Below, piece by piece: positions 50,972 through 57,554 of a stretch of 64,000 nucleotides of DNA. The stretch is taken from contig NZ_JANFQF010000001.1 of NCBI RefSeq assembly GCF_024438035.1, positions 481,514 to 545,513 of the forward strand. Direction: 5' to 3'. The DNA is from Rhodococcus tibetensis. GTDB taxonomy: Bacteria; Actinomycetota; Actinomycetes; Mycobacteriales; Mycobacteriaceae. The stretch's first letter is position 1, and every line of letters starts with the position of its first letter. Under the pieces are notes generated by a model, which worked only from the letters and a program-made list of their open reading frames with translations, was not told the origin of the DNA and did not search any database. A program made the position numbers and the translations under genes.

Positions 50972-51148
50972 CGAGGCGACGTTACAAGGGCGACCGGGAA
51001 CCCTGCACCCGGGTTCCGGACGCGGGCGCCCGGGGCGCTGCCCACTCCATCCAACCCTGAGGCACCGGCCCGTGTCAGCACTTGTGCGCAGCCGGATTCG
51101 AACTCGCTCGATCTCTTATTGTCCTTGTGCAGCAGGGAAATACACGTA

Positions 51149-51177
51149 TTGACGAGTTGGCCGAATGCGGATAGTGT
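51149..51177 (+). promoter_or_regulatory. Promoter of the organosulfur operon
   Basis: TTGACG (51149-51154), 17-bp spacer, TAGTGT (51172-51177). It would start transcription at about 51184, right at the first riboswitch stem. The long spacer region 50972-51148 upstream holds no gene that I can support. Confidence 0.6.
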
Positions 51178-51186
51178 TCGCGTCAA

Positions 51187-51278
51187 CCATCCAGAGCGAC
51201 CGAGAGACCTGGCTCGTCGACGTCGCAGCAACCCTTCCGGCCTGTTTCGGGTGCGGGTGCTACCGCCAGGATCGATGG
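51187..51278 (+). promoter_or_regulatory. SAM-I-clan riboswitch
   Basis: The S-box elements are in order: CCAGAG, then GAGAGACCTGGCTCG, then AGCAACC (51227-51233), then GGTGCT (51256-51261). P1 pairs CCATC (51187-51191) with GATGG (51274-51278); P2 pairs GCGAC (51196-51200) with GTCGC (51222-51226); P3 pairs ACCC (51231-51234) with GGGT (51255-51258). It binds SAM. The 3' strand of P1 overlaps the first two bases of the leader-peptide Shine-Dalgarno GGAAGG (51277-51282), so SAM binding could reduce leader translation. A P4 hairpin is not evident. Confidence 0.82.
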
Positions 51279-51288
51279 AAGGCATCAC

Positions 51289-51363
51289 ATGACTCACACC
51301 GCACGCAGTACGTGGCGCAGACGGCACATCGACCTGTGCCGCACCAAGTCCTGCGGTTGTTGA
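51289..51363 (+). CDS. Cys-containing leader peptide
   Basis: A 24-codon frame from ATG 51289 to TGA 51361-51363, with GGAAGG 6 bases upstream. The product ends in RRRHIDLCRTKSCGC, with three Cys codons in the last eight. Actinobacteria carry such RRHxDLCR leader peptides ahead of sulfur and cysteine genes, where ribosome stalling at Cys codons during cysteine shortage changes mRNA folding. It lies directly after the riboswitch and before competing hairpins. It was too short to be picked up as an ordinary gene. Confidence 0.8.
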   Translation: MTHTARSTWRRRHIDLCRTKSCGC

Positions 51364-51380
51364 CGCAGGCCGATCACCAG

Positions 51381-51432
51381 CTCACCGTGCGCAGTGCTCG
51401 GTGAGCGCCTGAGGCGCGTCCGCACGGTGCGG
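51381..51432 (+). promoter_or_regulatory. Mutually exclusive attenuator hairpins
   Basis: CTCACCG (51381-51387) pairs with CGGTGAG (51399-51405); GCGCC-TGA-GGCGC and CCGCA-CGG-TGCGG (51420-51432) form further hairpins. Alternatively CACCGTGCG (51383-51391) pairs perfectly with CGCACGGTG (51421-51429), which excludes the first and third. This is the layout of an attenuator ruled by translation of the leader peptide 18 bp upstream. Confidence 0.6.
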
Positions 51433-51480
51433 GGCAACGCGCTTCCCTCTTCGATCCCTGCCTCGACGAAAGGCCGTGTT

Positions 51481-52446
51481 GTGATGTCTGTCATAAGTGC
51501 GCCCGTACCCGTGGAGGACTGCCTCGACGACGGCGCACTCGAGGTCGCCCGGACGTGGCATCCGTGGCGGTGGGTGATCAGTGCCCTCGTGCTGGTGCTG
51601 ATGGCGCAATTCGTCCACGGCCTCGTCACCAATCCGGGATGGGACTGGTCGACGTTCGCGCAGTACTTCACTGCCGGCTCGGTGCTGAAAGCACTGTGGA
51701 TGACGGTGAAGCTCACGCTGTGGGGGACGGTCCTCGGCTTCGTGTTCGGTGTGGTGCTCGCGGTAGGCCGCTTGTCGCACAACCCAGTGCTGCAGGTGAT
51801 CGCCTGGGTCTACATCTGGGCGTTCCGGTCGATACCTCTGATCGTGCAATTACTGTTCTGGTTCAACATCACCTACCTGTATCAGACTCTCTCCGTGGGA
51901 ATCCCGTTCGGGCCCGGTTTCTTCTCGTTCGAGGTCAACGGCGTCATCAGCGGGTTCACCGCGGCTGTCATCGGGCTGGCACTCCACCAGGCCGCGTATT
52001 CGGCGGAGATCATCCGCTCCGGCATCATCTCCGTGGACCACGGTCAGATCGAGGCCGCCCAGTCGCTGGGCATCCCGCGGCGACGTCAGTTCTTCACCAT
52101 CGTTCTCCCGCAGGCGATGCGGGGAATACTGCCCAACGCAGCGAACGAAGTGATCAGCCTGTTCAAGGGCACCTCGATCGTGTCCACGATGGCAATCGCC
52201 GAACTCTTCTATCAGGTCCAGGTGATTTTCGGGCGTAACGGCCGGGTGGTGCCGCTCCTCATGGTGGCCACCATCTGGTACATCGTCCTGACCACTCTGC
52301 TGTCGATCGGGCAGTACTACGTCGAGCGCCACTACGCACGCGGATCAGCGCGGGCGCTGCCGTTGACTCCCTGGCAGAAAGTCACCCGGAAGTACGCCGA
52401 GATCCGCGACTCCCGCGTCGCCGTACCGAGAGGCGCCACCAAATGA
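51481..52446 (+). CDS. Polar amino acid ABC transporter permease
   Basis: A 321-residue permease with about six membrane segments in the His/Glu/Gln/Arg-type class. [16 protein letters not shown] and the EAA loop ([21 protein letters not shown]) are typical; this class covers cystine, glutamine and S-substituted cysteine importers such as TcyL/TcyM. The GTG start follows GAAAGG by 7 bases; ATG 51484 is an alternative. It is the first gene under the SAM/cysteine leader and overlaps the ATPase gene. Confidence 0.9.
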
Positions 52447-53243
52447 CTGTCGACGAGATCACCGCGGACAACATCACGGCGGCCGACCTCGCCGTCGAGG
52501 TCCGCGGAGTGCACAAGTCCTTCGGGTCCCTCGACGTCCTCCGCGGTGTCGACCTGCTGGTCCGCAAGGGCGAGGTGACGGCGATCCTCGGTCCGTCGGG
52601 GTCGGGCAAGTCGACCCTGCTCCGCACCCTCAACCACCTCGAGAAAGTGGACAAGGGCACGATTCGGATCGACGGCGAACTGATCGGCTACCGGCGCAGA
52701 GGAAACAAGCTTCACGAACTCCGGGAACGCGACATCCTGAAGCAGCGGTCGCGTATCGGCTTCGTGTTCCAGAACTTCAACCTCTTCCCGCATCTCACCG
52801 TGCTCGAGAACGTTGTCGAGGCGCCCGTCTCGGCACAGGGCCGCGACCGGGCGGAAGTGATCGCAGAGGCTCACGCTCTGTTGGAGCGGGTAGGCGTCGG
52901 CGACAAGGCCCGTGACTATCCGCGCCAGCTGTCCGGTGGACAGCAGCAGCGGGTGGCGATTGCCCGCGCCCTGGCCCTGCGCCCCGCTGTGATCCTGTTC
53001 GACGAACCGACGTCCGCGCTCGACCCCGAACTGGTCGGTGAGGTGCTGGCCGTCATCAAGCAGTTGGCGCGGGACGGGGCCACGCTCGTCATCGTCACTC
53101 ACGAGGTCGGGTTCGCCCGTGAGGTCGCGGACAACGCGGTGTTCATGGACGCGGGAGTCGTCGTCGAACAGGGACCACCTGCACAGGTCATCGACAATCC
53201 GCGCCACGAGCGCACCCGGGCATTCCTCTCCCGCGTGCTCTAG
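52443..53243 (+). CDS. Polar amino acid ABC transporter ATPase
   Basis: A 266-residue ATPase. Walker A is [12 protein letters not shown], signature is [16 protein letters not shown], Walker B is [15 protein letters not shown], with switch His in VIVTHEVG. It is the type that powers GlnQ/TcyN-like amino-acid importers. ATG 52443 overlaps the permease stop by ATGA. Confidence 0.93.
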
Positions 53244-53293: not shown

Positions 53294-54265
53294 ATGTCCT
53301 CCGCACGGTTCCGTACCAGAGTTCTGGCCTCCACAGTGGCCGCCGTCGCCCTGCTCACCGCTGCGTGCGGTGGCGGCGACACCGCGGCGGGAGGCACAGA
53401 GCCCTCCACGGCAAGCGGATACAACCTCACCGCCGAGCAGAACCGCATCACCACCGACAAGGTCGACGCGATCGCCGCCAAGGTCCCCCGACAGATTCGA
53501 GATCGCGGCACCCTCGTCGTGACCGGTGCAGCGGGTTCGGCTCCGCCCCTGCGGTTCTATGCCGATGACGACAAGACCCTCATCGGATCCGAAACAGACT
53601 TCGCCCACCTGATCGCAGACGTCCTCGGCCTCGAGGTGGACCTCCAGGCCGCGGACTGGGCACAAAACTTCGTCCGCGTCGACTCCGGGGAGGCGGACGC
53701 CTTCATCTCCAATGTCACCGTCACCGAGGAGCGCAAGGAGAAGTACGACTTCGCGACCTATCGCCTCGACACCATCGCCTTCGAGACGAAGAAGGACAGC
53801 GGCATTCGAATCACGGGACCGAAGGACGTCGCAGGACTGAAGATCGCGGTCTCCTCGGGCACCAATCAGGAGGCGCTGCTCGTGAAGTGGAGCGAGCAGA
53901 ACGTCGCAGCCGGACTCGCACCCACCGACATCACGTACTTCCAGAACGTCACCGACTACTACCTGCCGCTGGCTTCCGGCCGGATCGACGCTTATCTCGG
54001 CCCCAACCCGTCCTTGGCGTTCCATGTGGCGCAGTCGGGGGAGAGCGAGATCGCCGGCACCTTCTCCGGGGCCGGTGACGCCTTGCAGGGTGAGATCGGG
54101 GTCCTGACCAAGAAGGACAACGGACTGATCACCGCCGTGAACGAGGCGATCAATCATGTCATCGGAAATGGCACCTACGCAGAGGTTCTGAAGCGCTGGA
54201 ACATCGAGAACGAGGCAATCGACGCGTCGGTTGTCAACCCGCCCGGTCTTCCGAAGAACAGCTGA
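53294..54265 (+). CDS. Amino acid ABC transporter substrate-binding lipoprotein
   Basis: A 323-residue SBP_bac_3-type lipoprotein: signal with lipobox LTAAC (Cys about 25), and mature features LVVTGAAGSAPPLRFYADDD, IGSETDFAHLIADVLGLEV and FISNVTVTEERKEKYDFATY. It binds a polar amino acid or derivative outside the membrane for the permease and ATPase just upstream. Ligand uncertain; operon context suggests a sulfur compound. Confidence 0.9.
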   Translation: MSSARFRTRVLASTVAAVALLTAACGGGDTAAGGTEPSTASGYNLTAEQNRITTDKVDAIAAKVPRQIRDRGTLVVTGAAGSAPPLRFYADDDKTLIGSETDFAHLIADVLGLEVDLQAADWAQNFVRVDSGEADAFISNVTVTEERKEKYDFATYRLDTIAFETKKDSGIRITGPKDVAGLKIAVSSGTNQEALLVKWSEQNVAAGLAPTDITYFQNVTDYYLPLASGRIDAYLGPNPSLAFHVAQSGESEIAGTFSGAGDALQGEIGVLTKKDNGLITAVNEAINHVIGNGTYAEVLKRWNIENEAIDASVVNPPGLPKNS

Positions 54266-54800: not shown

Positions 54801-55852
54801 AGTTCCTTCTGATGACTCTCATCGCGCACCAGCCCGACCCCGTGACCGGCGAGAAGGTCGACACAGCGACACGTTTGCAGGAAGTGGTCGATTCGGCGGT
54901 CGTCGCCGAACAACTCGGCTACGACGGGTTCGCTGTCGGTGAGCGGCACGAACATCCGTTCCTGTCTTCGGCCCCGCCCGTAGTGCTCAGCGCGATCGCG
55001 GCGCGCACCACCGCACTGCAGCTGTGGACAGCGGTGACCACCTTGAGCCTGCTCGATCCGGTCCGGGCCTTCGAGGACTATTCGACGCTCGACAACCTGT
55101 CGGGCGGCCGCCTGCAGCTGATCATCGGCAAGGGAAACGGCACGGCCCAGGCCGAGTTGTTCTCCGTGACCCCCAGCGACCAGTGGGATCGCAATCGCGA
55201 GGGGTATGAACTTTTCCGGAAATTGTGGGAAAGCGACGACGTGACGTGGGAGGGCCGGTTCCGTCCTCGCCTCGATCACGCCGTCGCCCTTCCGCGACCA
55301 CTTCAGCCTCGGATCCGGATCTGGCACGGCAGTGCCACCAGTAGGGACTCGGTCGACCTGGCCGCGCGGTACGGCGACCCGCTCTTCTCCGCCAATGTCA
55401 CAGGCCCTGTCGAGCCGTATGCCGAACTCATTCGCCACTACCGCGAGCGGTGGATCGACTACGGCCACGACCCCGCCGACGCACTGGTGGGCGCCGGAAC
55501 TGCTGGCTTCTATGTGACACCCAACTCGCAGGACGCCGTCGATACCTGGCGCCCGATACACGCCGCACGGGTCGATTTCGCGCGCAGGACGGGCCTACCG
55601 GTGGTGTTCGACACGGTGGAAGACTTCGTGGAGCGAAGTTCGGCGCTCGTCGGCAGTCCGGAGCAGGTGATCGACAAGGTTGCGCGTTACCACGAGAAAT
55701 TCGGCCACCAGGTAATCCATCTCGGTGCCGATCGGGTGGGAATGAGCGACAAACAGCACCGAGAAAGCCTCGAACTGTTCCAGGCCGAAGTGGCGCCCGA
55801 GTTACGCGCGACCATTCCGAGCCGCCCCCTCACAACCCTTCAGTACACGTGA
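54797..55852 (+). CDS. LLM-class flavin-dependent monooxygenase 1
   Basis: A 351-residue luciferase-like TIM-barrel protein (LGYDGFAVGERHEHPFLSS, LDNLSGGRLQLIIGKGNG, FGHQVIHLGADRVGMS). These enzymes use FMNH2 or F420 and O2 to cleave C-S or oxidise C-H bonds. Overlaps the GNAT gene. The branch is nearer to general bacterial luciferase-like oxidases than to DszA. Confidence 0.85.
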   Translation: MKFLLMTLIAHQPDPVTGEKVDTATRLQEVVDSAVVAEQLGYDGFAVGERHEHPFLSSAPPVVLSAIAARTTALQLWTAVTTLSLLDPVRAFEDYSTLDNLSGGRLQLIIGKGNGTAQAELFSVTPSDQWDRNREGYELFRKLWESDDVTWEGRFRPRLDHAVALPRPLQPRIRIWHGSATSRDSVDLAARYGDPLFSANVTGPVEPYAELIRHYRERWIDYGHDPADALVGAGTAGFYVTPNSQDAVDTWRPIHAARVDFARRTGLPVVFDTVEDFVERSSALVGSPEQVIDKVARYHEKFGHQVIHLGADRVGMSDKQHRESLELFQAEVAPELRATIPSRPLTTLQYT

Positions 55853-55907
55853 GCGTTCCCGAATCCCGGGCCTCACTCGTACACGTCGTCGAAAAACGGA
55901 GTCCTCG

Positions 55908-57554
55908 GTGTCCTCAGTGACCTTGTCCTCGATTTTCTGCGGGAATGCCCGCACAACAACAGGTTTCGCAGTCGCCGCCGTGCTGGCGTCGGTACTCACC
56001 GCGTGCGGCGGCGATGCGAGCAACACCGCGGCGGACGCCGGTCCGCCGGGGCCCGGCGGAACTCTCCGCTACGGGCTGTCCCAGGCGCCGACGTGCGCAG
56101 ACCCCGCACAGTCCGGCACGAACCAGACGATCTACGTGACTCGTCAGGTGGTGGATTCACTGACTGACCAGGATCCCGAGACCGGCGAACTGACACCCTG
56201 GCTCGCGGAGAGCTGGGAGACGAACGCCGACGCGTCCTCCTTCACGTTTCACGTAAAGGAGGGGGTGACCTTCAGCGACGGAACTCCCTTCACTGCGGAT
56301 TCGGTGAAGAAGAATCTCGACGCCGTCGTGAACACGCTCACCGGGGCCAAGGCGCCTCTGGCTTCCAGCTACCTGACCGGATACACCGGAACCATCGTGA
56401 TCGATGCCCAGACCGCACAGGTCAACTTCTCGGCACCCAACGCGCAATTTTTGCAAGCGTCGTCCACCCCGCAGCTGGGCATTCTGTCGGATGCGTCCGT
56501 CGCCAAGTCGCCGGAGGAGCGCTGCACCGGCAACATCTCCGGGACCGGGCCGTTCACGTATGCCGACTACCAACAGGACAAGTCCGTCACGCTCGCGAAA
56601 CGCGCAGGATATCGCTGGGGTTCGGAGGTCTTCGGCCATGACGGTGAGGCTTATCTCGACAGGATCGAGTTCAGTGTGATCCCCGAATCCGGCGTCCGGA
56701 CAGGAAGCTTGTCTTCGGGTCAACTCGACGCGATCAGTGATGCGCTTCCCCAGGATGCGCCACAGATCGAGGGCGTGGGCGGGAAGGTGCTCACCACGTC
56801 CAACCCGGGCACACCGTTCGGGTTTCAGCCCAACGTGACTCGCGGTCCCCTCACCGATCCGGTGGTCCGTAGCGCCCTCGTTTCGGCGATCAACCGGCAG
56901 GAACTGGTCGATACCGTGCTCGGCCCCAATTTCAAGCCAGCCACCAGCACCTTGGCGAGCCGTACCCCGGGCTACGTGGCGCTGGCCGAGGTGACCTACG
57001 ACCAGGAAAAGACTAAATCGATCCTCGACCGCGCCGGCTGGACTCCCGGCGCCGACGGCATCCGGGAAAAGGCTGGGCAGAAGCTCAGCTTCCCGGTTCT
57101 GTTCAGCTCGGTGTTCGCGGGCAATCAGACCATCCTCGAACTGGTGCAACAACAGCTCAAAGAGGTGGGCGTGGATCTGCGTCTCGACCTCGTGTCGACC
57201 CCCGAATCCATTGCGCGCCAAAATGCCAAGGACTTCGACGCCGCCTACTACAACAGCACCCGCGCCGACGGCGACATCCTGCGCACCCAGTTCGGTCTCG
57301 ACGGACGGAACCTCAACAGCCGCGGCCCGATTCCCGCCCTCGACCAGGTGCTCGCCGAGCAGCTCGCCACCACCGACACCGCCGCTCGGAGCGAACTTCT
57401 CGGCGACGCCCAGCAGCAGGTGCTCGACAACGGACTGTGGATCCCCACCGTGGAACTGTCCCAGGCGATCGGTGCCGGCCCGAACGTGCAGGATCTGAAG
57501 TTCGAGGCTTCGGCTCGACTCCAGTTCTTCGACACCTGGATCAGCGGAAGCTAG
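55908..57554 (+). CDS. Peptide/nickel-type ABC transporter substrate-binding lipoprotein
   Basis: A 548-residue SBP_bac_5 family protein. Signal with lipobox LTAC (about residue 33) and long two-lobed mature domain (TPWLAESWETNADASSFTFH, VTFSDGTPFTADSVKKNLDA, GNISGTGPFTYADY). It binds oligopeptides or related ligands for the two permeases downstream. GTG 55908 has GGAG 6 bases upstream. Confidence 0.9.
   Translation: MSSVTLSSIFCGNARTTTGFAVAAVLASVLTACGGDASNTAADAGPPGPGGTLRYGLSQAPTCADPAQSGTNQTIYVTRQVVDSLTDQDPETGELTPWLAESWETNADASSFTFHVKEGVTFSDGTPFTADSVKKNLDAVVNTLTGAKAPLASSYLTGYTGTIVIDAQTAQVNFSAPNAQFLQASSTPQLGILSDASVAKSPEERCTGNISGTGPFTYADYQQDKSVTLAKRAGYRWGSEVFGHDGEAYLDRIEFSVIPESGVRTGSLSSGQLDAISDALPQDAPQIEGVGGKVLTTSNPGTPFGFQPNVTRGPLTDPVVRSALVSAINRQELVDTVLGPNFKPATSTLASRTPGYVALAEVTYDQEKTKSILDRAGWTPGADGIREKAGQKLSFPVLFSSVFAGNQTILELVQQQLKEVGVDLRLDLVSTPESIARQNAKDFDAAYYNSTRADGDILRTQFGLDGRNLNSRGPIPALDQVLAEQLATTDTAARSELLGDAQQQVLDNGLWIPTVELSQAIGAGPNVQDLKFEASARLQFFDTWISGS

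Follow-up and report, generated by a model that had tools for sequence, protein, structure and literature searches.

A SAM-I riboswitch and a cysteine leader peptide in series ahead of a putative sulfur salvage operon in Rhodococcus

The DNA analysed here, called the window below, is a stretch of 64,000 nucleotides (nt) from Rhodococcus tibetensis (assembly GCF_024438035.1, contig NZ_JANFQF010000001.1, positions 481,514 to 545,513), and our subject is a 5' leader within it in which an S-adenosylmethionine (SAM) riboswitch is followed by a short Cys-containing open reading frame (ORF) ahead of a transport operon. A first-pass annotation of this DNA had proposed a 24-codon Cys leader directly behind the riboswitch, and both elements are present: cmscan places a SAM-I aptamer above the gathering score of its family (44.4 bits) with the full model covered, and the leader ATG follows 7 nt past the end of the aptamer. 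The features of this part of the transcript are the following.

51184–51281, plus strand: SAM-I (S box) riboswitch aptamer, RF00162, 51.4 bits, E 6.8e-9, model positions 1–108 of 108
51187–51191, plus strand: 5' strand of the P1 helix, CCATC, partner of 51274–51278 in the cmscan alignment
51274–51278, plus strand: 3' strand of the P1 helix, GATGG, from the cmscan alignment
51277–51282, plus strand: Shine-Dalgarno sequence of the leader, GGAAGG, its first two G inside P1 (from the sequence)
51289–51363, plus strand: Cys leader peptide ORF, MTHTARSTWRRRHIDLCRTKSCGC and a stop codon, 24 codons, resembling NF042934
51337–51339, plus strand: Cys codon 17 (TGC), within the HxDLCR core; 76 of the 84 core leaders described below have Cys here
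51352–51354, plus strand: Cys codon 22 (TGC), from the sequence
51358–51360, plus strand: Cys codon 24 (TGT), adjoining the stop, from the sequence

This arrangement is not peculiar to the window, whose genome holds one RF00162 match. The family RF00162 was found in 21 of 28 genomes of the genus and in 114 of 401 genomes of the taxonomic family, and we oriented 153 SAM-I places (50 of the 52 listed in the genus and 103 listed in the family outside the genus); these are the best-scoring among the matches listed, with six listed ones not included and further family matches beyond the listing, and not a random draw, and three of them (L047, L048 and L049) lie below the Rfam gathering score, L047 being counted among the core leaders. 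At 91 of the 153 places a short Cys-containing ORF occupies the slot behind the aptamer, and 84 of these ORFs carry an HxD core. The 84 loci represent 62 distinct peptides in 59 of 104 genomes and nine genus codes, and their leaders begin 1–12 nt past the aptamer. At 35 other places the slot is taken by a frame of more than 100 amino acids, beginning 2–12 nt past the aptamer; one genus code (g23) has a single leader in 25 places. These counts suggest one slot with two alternative occupants, a Cys leader or a long frame, either of which may follow a riboswitch of this kind in exchange for the other. The P1 pairing CCATC...GATGG is found in 79 of the 84 tandem loci, and a Shine-Dalgarno sequence joined to P1 (GATGGAGG, GATGGAAGG or GATGGGAG) likewise in 79 of 84, and in 129 of the 153 places overall.

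Further from the family the leader was absent from the sample: we examined the 59 best-scoring loci at order and phylum level (59 of 60 new loci, with L183 left out), and no leader motif turned up within 300 nt in any of them; in 28 of the 29 order-level loci a frame of more than 100 amino acids begins 6–17 nt past the aptamer. A pattern scan of named genomes returned at least 80 stretches, 45 of them titled Rhodococcus, Rhodococcoides or Williamsia and 35 titled otherwise; an Rfam scan covered 18 of those 35 and confirmed the tandem in 13 (six from Blastococcus, two each from Geodermatophilus, Kineococcus and Pseudonocardia, and one from a Micrococcales metagenome-assembled genome). One of the 13 (L287) has, in addition, a longer frame that begins in the slot. 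Behind some of them we read, by sequence, an ABC ATPase of the methionine-importer kind, a rhodanese, a luciferase-like monooxygenase (LLM) or a family-5 binding protein. A plasmid collection gave one distant match only, over 28% of the query and within the aptamer. The order riboswitch then Cys leader, which the first-pass annotation had suggested looking for in other actinobacteria, does recur there, and sequence comparison shows a genuine tandem, conserved and of wide occurrence, beyond what chance placement would give.

The peptide itself resembles the NCBI 'putative leader peptide' family NF042934 (26.5 bits, E 3.4e-6); we say that it resembles the family rather than belongs to it because the score is 0.5 bit short of the curated cut-off of 27. 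The same model matches, at E 0.01 or better, 30 of 31 leaders tested (26 drawn from the 62 distinct peptides of the family, and 5 from the 13 of other genera). Across 66 distinct 12-codon windows the pairwise differences at codon positions 1, 2 and 3 are 0.33, 0.24 and 0.52, and the same count over the 36 nt 3' of the leader stop gives 0.68, 0.69 and 0.71. The nonsynonymous rate (dN) is below the synonymous rate (dS) in 93.6% of 1711 usable leader pairs; since similar loci are not independent, such pair shares, and p-values, are loose. The H and the D of the core are each kept in 64 of the 66 distinct windows and R18 in 65; among 31 aligned leaders from several genera R11, H13, D15 and C24 never vary, and conservation is 90% or more at L16, C17 and R18. 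The last Cys lies three codons or fewer from the stop in 72 of the 84 core leaders. Conservation of the frame in relatives, on which the earlier proposal depended, was thus borne out by codon-position differences, dN/dS and the HxD core, and this comparative evidence shows the frame to be constrained as coding sequence. Genus code g6 has seven loci (L073, L088, L094, L096, L125, L126 and L152, from Rhodococcoides) where a nine-residue ORF occupies the slot, for example MNICTCTHA or MNTCIRTPA, in which the HxD core is lost and one or two Cys codons are left.

Invariant residues such as R11, H13, D15 and C24 would not be needed by a pure codon sensor, and this raises a second way of reading the leader: that the ribosome is stalled not just by a shortage of Cys-tRNA but also by the nascent R-x-H-x-D-L-C-R chain, acting as an arrest peptide that may read a sulfur metabolite. 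Such an arrest peptide may be compatible with the model developed below. The nine-residue ORFs of Rhodococcoides, which keep Cys codons and have no core, speak against it, and we regard it as a minority possibility, perhaps one chance among several.

How might the aptamer act on the leader? The 7 nt between the aptamer and the ATG leave no space for an expression platform of the riboswitch alone, and for the same lack of room we rejected a riboswitch terminator placed between them; neither an intrinsic terminator with a T run nor a sigma-70 promoter was found in 51000–51600. When P1 is forced in a fold of the window locus, four of the six Shine-Dalgarno bases are paired, and when the 5' strand of P1 is freed, five of the six are unpaired (at 0.71–0.84). 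Since the Shine-Dalgarno sequence of the leader starts inside P1 and no platform has room, the riboswitch most likely gates translation of the leader. The leader also sits where a structural gene starts at other loci, and the same platform should therefore act on it; the riboswitch would most likely be a translational OFF switch on whichever frame follows.

The two elements could instead be neighbours by chance, with the leader translated regardless of SAM. The window genome does have four further Cys leaders that lack a SAM-I riboswitch, as this alternative would have it. The tight spacing of 1–12 nt and the joining of Shine-Dalgarno sequence to P1 in nearly all tandem loci argue the other way; aptamer and leader do not look independent, and we give chance adjacency very little credence. 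Elsewhere in the window genome, a SAM-IV riboswitch is followed, about 1.4 kilobases (kb) on, by the Cys leader MIAHWCRRHVDLCRTASGMCSS (L074, also L310, contig C30); an aminotransferase class V gene (PF00266) intervenes, so that this leader is internal to its operon and not at the head. The Cys leaders L075, L077 and L078, which have no SAM-I riboswitch, are found upstream of a NIR_SIR sulfite/nitrite reductase, a rhodanese and an SDF-family symporter.

The operon behind the leader begins with its own Shine-Dalgarno sequence and comprises the following features.

51468–51473, plus strand: second Shine-Dalgarno sequence, GAAAGG, before the permease start (from the sequence)
51484–52446, plus strand: amino-acid-type ABC permease, PF00528; best NCBIfam model a cystine permease, 139 bits against a cut-off of 300
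52443–53243, plus strand: ABC ATPase, PF00005; TcyN-like, 321 bits against a cut-off of 406
53294–54265, plus strand: solute-binding protein, family 3, PF00497
54231–54800, plus strand: GNAT acetyltransferase, PF00583
54797–55852, plus strand: luciferase-like monooxygenase, PF00296
55908–57554, plus strand: solute-binding protein, family 5, PF00496

Further genes on the same strand encode a binding-protein-dependent (BPD) permease and two more LLM proteins, with transporter-like frames between. Cystine-transporter models are the best for the permease and the ATPase and the second best for the binding protein, all below their cut-offs, and we take the operon to be a putative system for importing and degrading an organic sulfur compound. 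Upstream of the riboswitch lies a divergent TauE/SafE-family gene (PF01925, 50204–50971, minus strand). Some relatives (L008–L011, L013–L017, L021–L027 and L029) have a second riboswitch-leader tandem about 5–7 kb from the first; it precedes an apparent homologue of the family-5 binding protein, at the equivalent of window 55852–55908.

A permease orthologue (at least 82% identity) is found in 21 of the 28 genus genomes, exactly the 21 that have RF00162; 20 of these have riboswitch and leader, and one (G025) has the riboswitch without the leader. In G308 and several g23 genomes the riboswitch stands directly before the permease. On a permease tree of 54 rows, in which the 18 rows without an HxD leader include seven with short Cys ORFs and the row L149 is a doubtful long branch, the presence of the leader requires seven changes, at least five of them forced by well-supported branches, and a single gain of the leader was rejected on that account. 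In 29 of the 33 tandem permease loci the permease start is preceded, at exactly 26 nt, by the ATG of a nine-residue ORF whose TGA overlaps that start (GTGA or ATGA), and some such coupling ORF is present in 31 of 33; in relatives GAAAGG or a near form stands ahead of this second small ORF or of the permease. The matching ATG of the window (51484) is in frame, which makes coupling ORF and permease one continuous frame. Four g23 loci (L142, L144, L149 and L163) have, behind the riboswitch, a seven-residue ORF, VIIEDPS, with its TGA overlapping the permease start, possibly a relay without a Cys leader.

The first-pass annotation had also placed competing hairpins behind the leader, two of them excluded by a 9-bp alternative pairing, as the switch through which the ribosome would act. 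The elements concerned are these.

51380–51406, plus strand: hairpin 1, 6–8 of 8 pairs kept in nine relatives, nearest clade only
51414–51442, plus strand: outer stem with an inner hairpin at 51420–51432, no T run called behind it
51383–51391, plus strand: 5' arm of the 9-bp alternative pairing, not conserved
51421–51429, plus strand: 3' arm of the 9-bp alternative pairing, not conserved

The 9-bp complementarity is exact and does overlap the stems of both hairpins (51380–51406 and 51420–51432), and to that extent the proposal stands. It is not special: perfect stems of this length or more occur in 62 of 1000 dinucleotide shuffles, in 10 of 1000 also overlapping at least two hairpins, and the nine nearest relatives (R. 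jostii/opacus-like) keep four of the nine pairs in eight cases and five in one. Region 51361–51475 is only slightly more stable than its shuffles (z -1.35), 20 of 200 of which match it. The nearest clade does conserve part of this structure, with hairpin 1 kept as listed, five of six pairs of the outer stem (51414–51419/51437–51442) and four of five of the inner hairpin, and its consensus fold (-49.5 kcal/mol) lies below 29 of 30 column shuffles; the consensus folds of an R. erythropolis-like clade (-11.8) and an R. fascians-like clade (-3.4) each beat 30 of 30 shuffles, are weak and different, and contain neither hairpin 1 nor the outer stem. No post-leader structure common to the three compared clades was found. 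Classical attenuation, in which the stalled ribosome would choose between exclusive hairpins in 51380–51442, one of them an intrinsic terminator, can thus draw on hairpin 1, the outer stem and the consensus fold of the window clade. Against it stand the poorly kept 9-bp pairing, the low fold score, the missing terminator and the two other leader-keeping clades; a trp-type attenuator has conserved mutually exclusive hairpins and a T-run intrinsic terminator, and neither was found at the locus. We consider this mechanism unlikely, and on the same grounds rejected the competing hairpins as a conserved platform.

A different exit from transcription is suggested by base composition. In the 60 nt behind the leader stop C exceeds G at 80 of 83 distinct loci, compared with 43 of 83 upstream of the aptamer, and the window genome has a rho gene; Rho was proposed for mycobacterial Cys leaders, where there is no obvious terminator, in the covered parts of PMC1262725. 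We therefore offer the following scheme as a proposal. With SAM bound, P1 would hold part of the Shine-Dalgarno sequence and the leader would go untranslated, and the untranslated RNA would end early, most likely through Rho. With SAM absent, a ribosome would enter the leader. If Cys-tRNA(Cys) is plentiful, that ribosome would finish and leave, and Rho would gain access to the C-rich stretch behind the stop codon; if Cys-tRNA(Cys) is scarce, it would wait at the stop-proximal Cys codons, cover the start of the C-rich stretch and allow transcription to enter the operon. In the window clade the hairpins may supplement or replace the Rho step. In its general form, that the riboswitch controls translation of the leader and the Cys codons of the leader control the operon behind, we think this account probable.

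Several observations weigh against parts of it. An unconstrained fold of the aptamer with the start of the leader also hides four of the six Shine-Dalgarno bases, and folds with and without P1 tie in energy, so gating is plausible and not computed; five of the 84 tandem loci do not have the usual P1, and 27 of the 153 places fit neither the Cys-leader nor the long-frame class. Two leaders (L046 and L047) do not have the core Cys (HIDLRR), yet keep the two terminal Cys. The Rho step is least supported at the window itself, where C exceeds G by just 0.03 per base over the 60 nt behind the leader and, over 80 nt (a per-locus comparison without the last three permease rows), C is 0.36 and G 0.38. 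Finally, a simulated ribosome stall increased access to the next Shine-Dalgarno sequence by more than 0.1 relative to the terminating state in 8 of 33 loci and decreased it in 3, and opening of that sequence by a stalled ribosome was rejected because the effect is inconsistent.

The last result also bears on a relay or attenuation at the level of translation, without termination, in which the riboswitch sets leader translation and the arrival or stalling of the ribosome sets access to the second Shine-Dalgarno sequence and the nine-residue coupling ORF, on the model of the uPPE2 relay or of the M. smegmatis Cys leaders. Its support is the overlap of coupling ORF and permease start at 29 of 33 loci, and a riboswitch-uORF (upstream ORF) relay demonstrated in M. 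tuberculosis, according to the covered parts of PMC11260477. The inconsistent effect of the simulated stall speaks against it, as do the distances from leader stop to permease (144–146 nt) and to coupling ORF (about 119 nt) in the nine R. jostii-like loci, and the fusion of coupling ORF to permease in the window. We hold this relay to be rather improbable.

Returning to the scheme in which the riboswitch gates a Cys-sensing leader, stalling needs a loaded ribosome, and the series order therefore demands that SAM and Cys both be low. The operon would be ON only in that condition, which is a NOR gate in its ligands; the AND gate for sulfur starvation suggested earlier describes the same logic if low SAM and low Cys are meant as the inputs, and in ligand terms the name does not fit. 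In its fullest form the idea is that the riboswitch licenses loading of a ribosome that is itself the second sensor, that Cys or the nascent HxDLCR decides the stall, that salvage operons come on only if both are low, and that the module has been reused across loci and genera; on this whole we would place an even bet. If it is true, a metabolite aptamer and a ribosome-stalling leader, usually treated apart, are joined such that their order enforces the logic, and methionine supply and cysteine supply would act separately on the sulfur salvage operons of Rhodococcus, which is employed in desulfurisation. The natural comparison is the same permease behind riboswitch and leader and behind the riboswitch alone (G025, G308 and several g23 genomes).

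Actinobacterial Cys leader peptides were reportedly treated by Canestrari in 2020. Riboswitch-controlled uORFs and Cys leaders have each been published, and our literature searches showed no publication in which a SAM riboswitch and a Cys leader stand in series, which is not proof because most subscription journals lay outside the coverage. The published actinobacterial Cys leaders (NF042934, Ms4527A and Ms5788A; PMC1262725 and PMC4633059, in the parts covered) likewise have an HxDLCR-type core, stop-proximal Cys codons and sulfur genes behind. The M. smegmatis Cys attenuators are leaderless according to the title of their paper (as cited in the covered parts of PMC13236596), whereas the present leader has a Shine-Dalgarno sequence and lies directly behind a riboswitch, its ATG 105 nt past the start of the aptamer, which argues against the leaderless type of Cys uORF. 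In the M. tuberculosis B12 riboswitch-uPPE2 relay a riboswitch likewise controls a small ORF needed downstream, with overlapping stop and start codons; unlike the tandem described here, the relay has one input, works by termination-reinitiation and, in the covered parts of PMC11260477, has no sensing leader. The Salmonella mgtCBR tandem attenuators are alike in that operon transcription is governed by a pair of small ORFs within a single leader, and differ in that no ligand-binding aptamer gating an ORF is named in the covered parts of PMC3641672. In M. tuberculosis Mbox-rv1805A, as described in the covered parts of PMC12810186, uORF1 has several Cys codons among rare codons; there the ligand is Mg2+, uORF1 is poorly conserved, the conserved regulated ORF is uORF2, and amino-acid sensing is not proposed. 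If the present reading is true, amino-acid sensing would be worth seeking in other riboswitch-controlled uORFs, and the Cys-codon-bearing uORF1 of this Mbox is an example. Leaders with two RNA aptamers, SAM-I being one input, share two-input logic with the window tandem; the covered parts of a review of them contain neither 'leader peptide' nor 'uORF'. In those leaders both sensors are RNA, whereas in the window tandem the second sensor would be a translating ribosome whose loading is controlled by the first.
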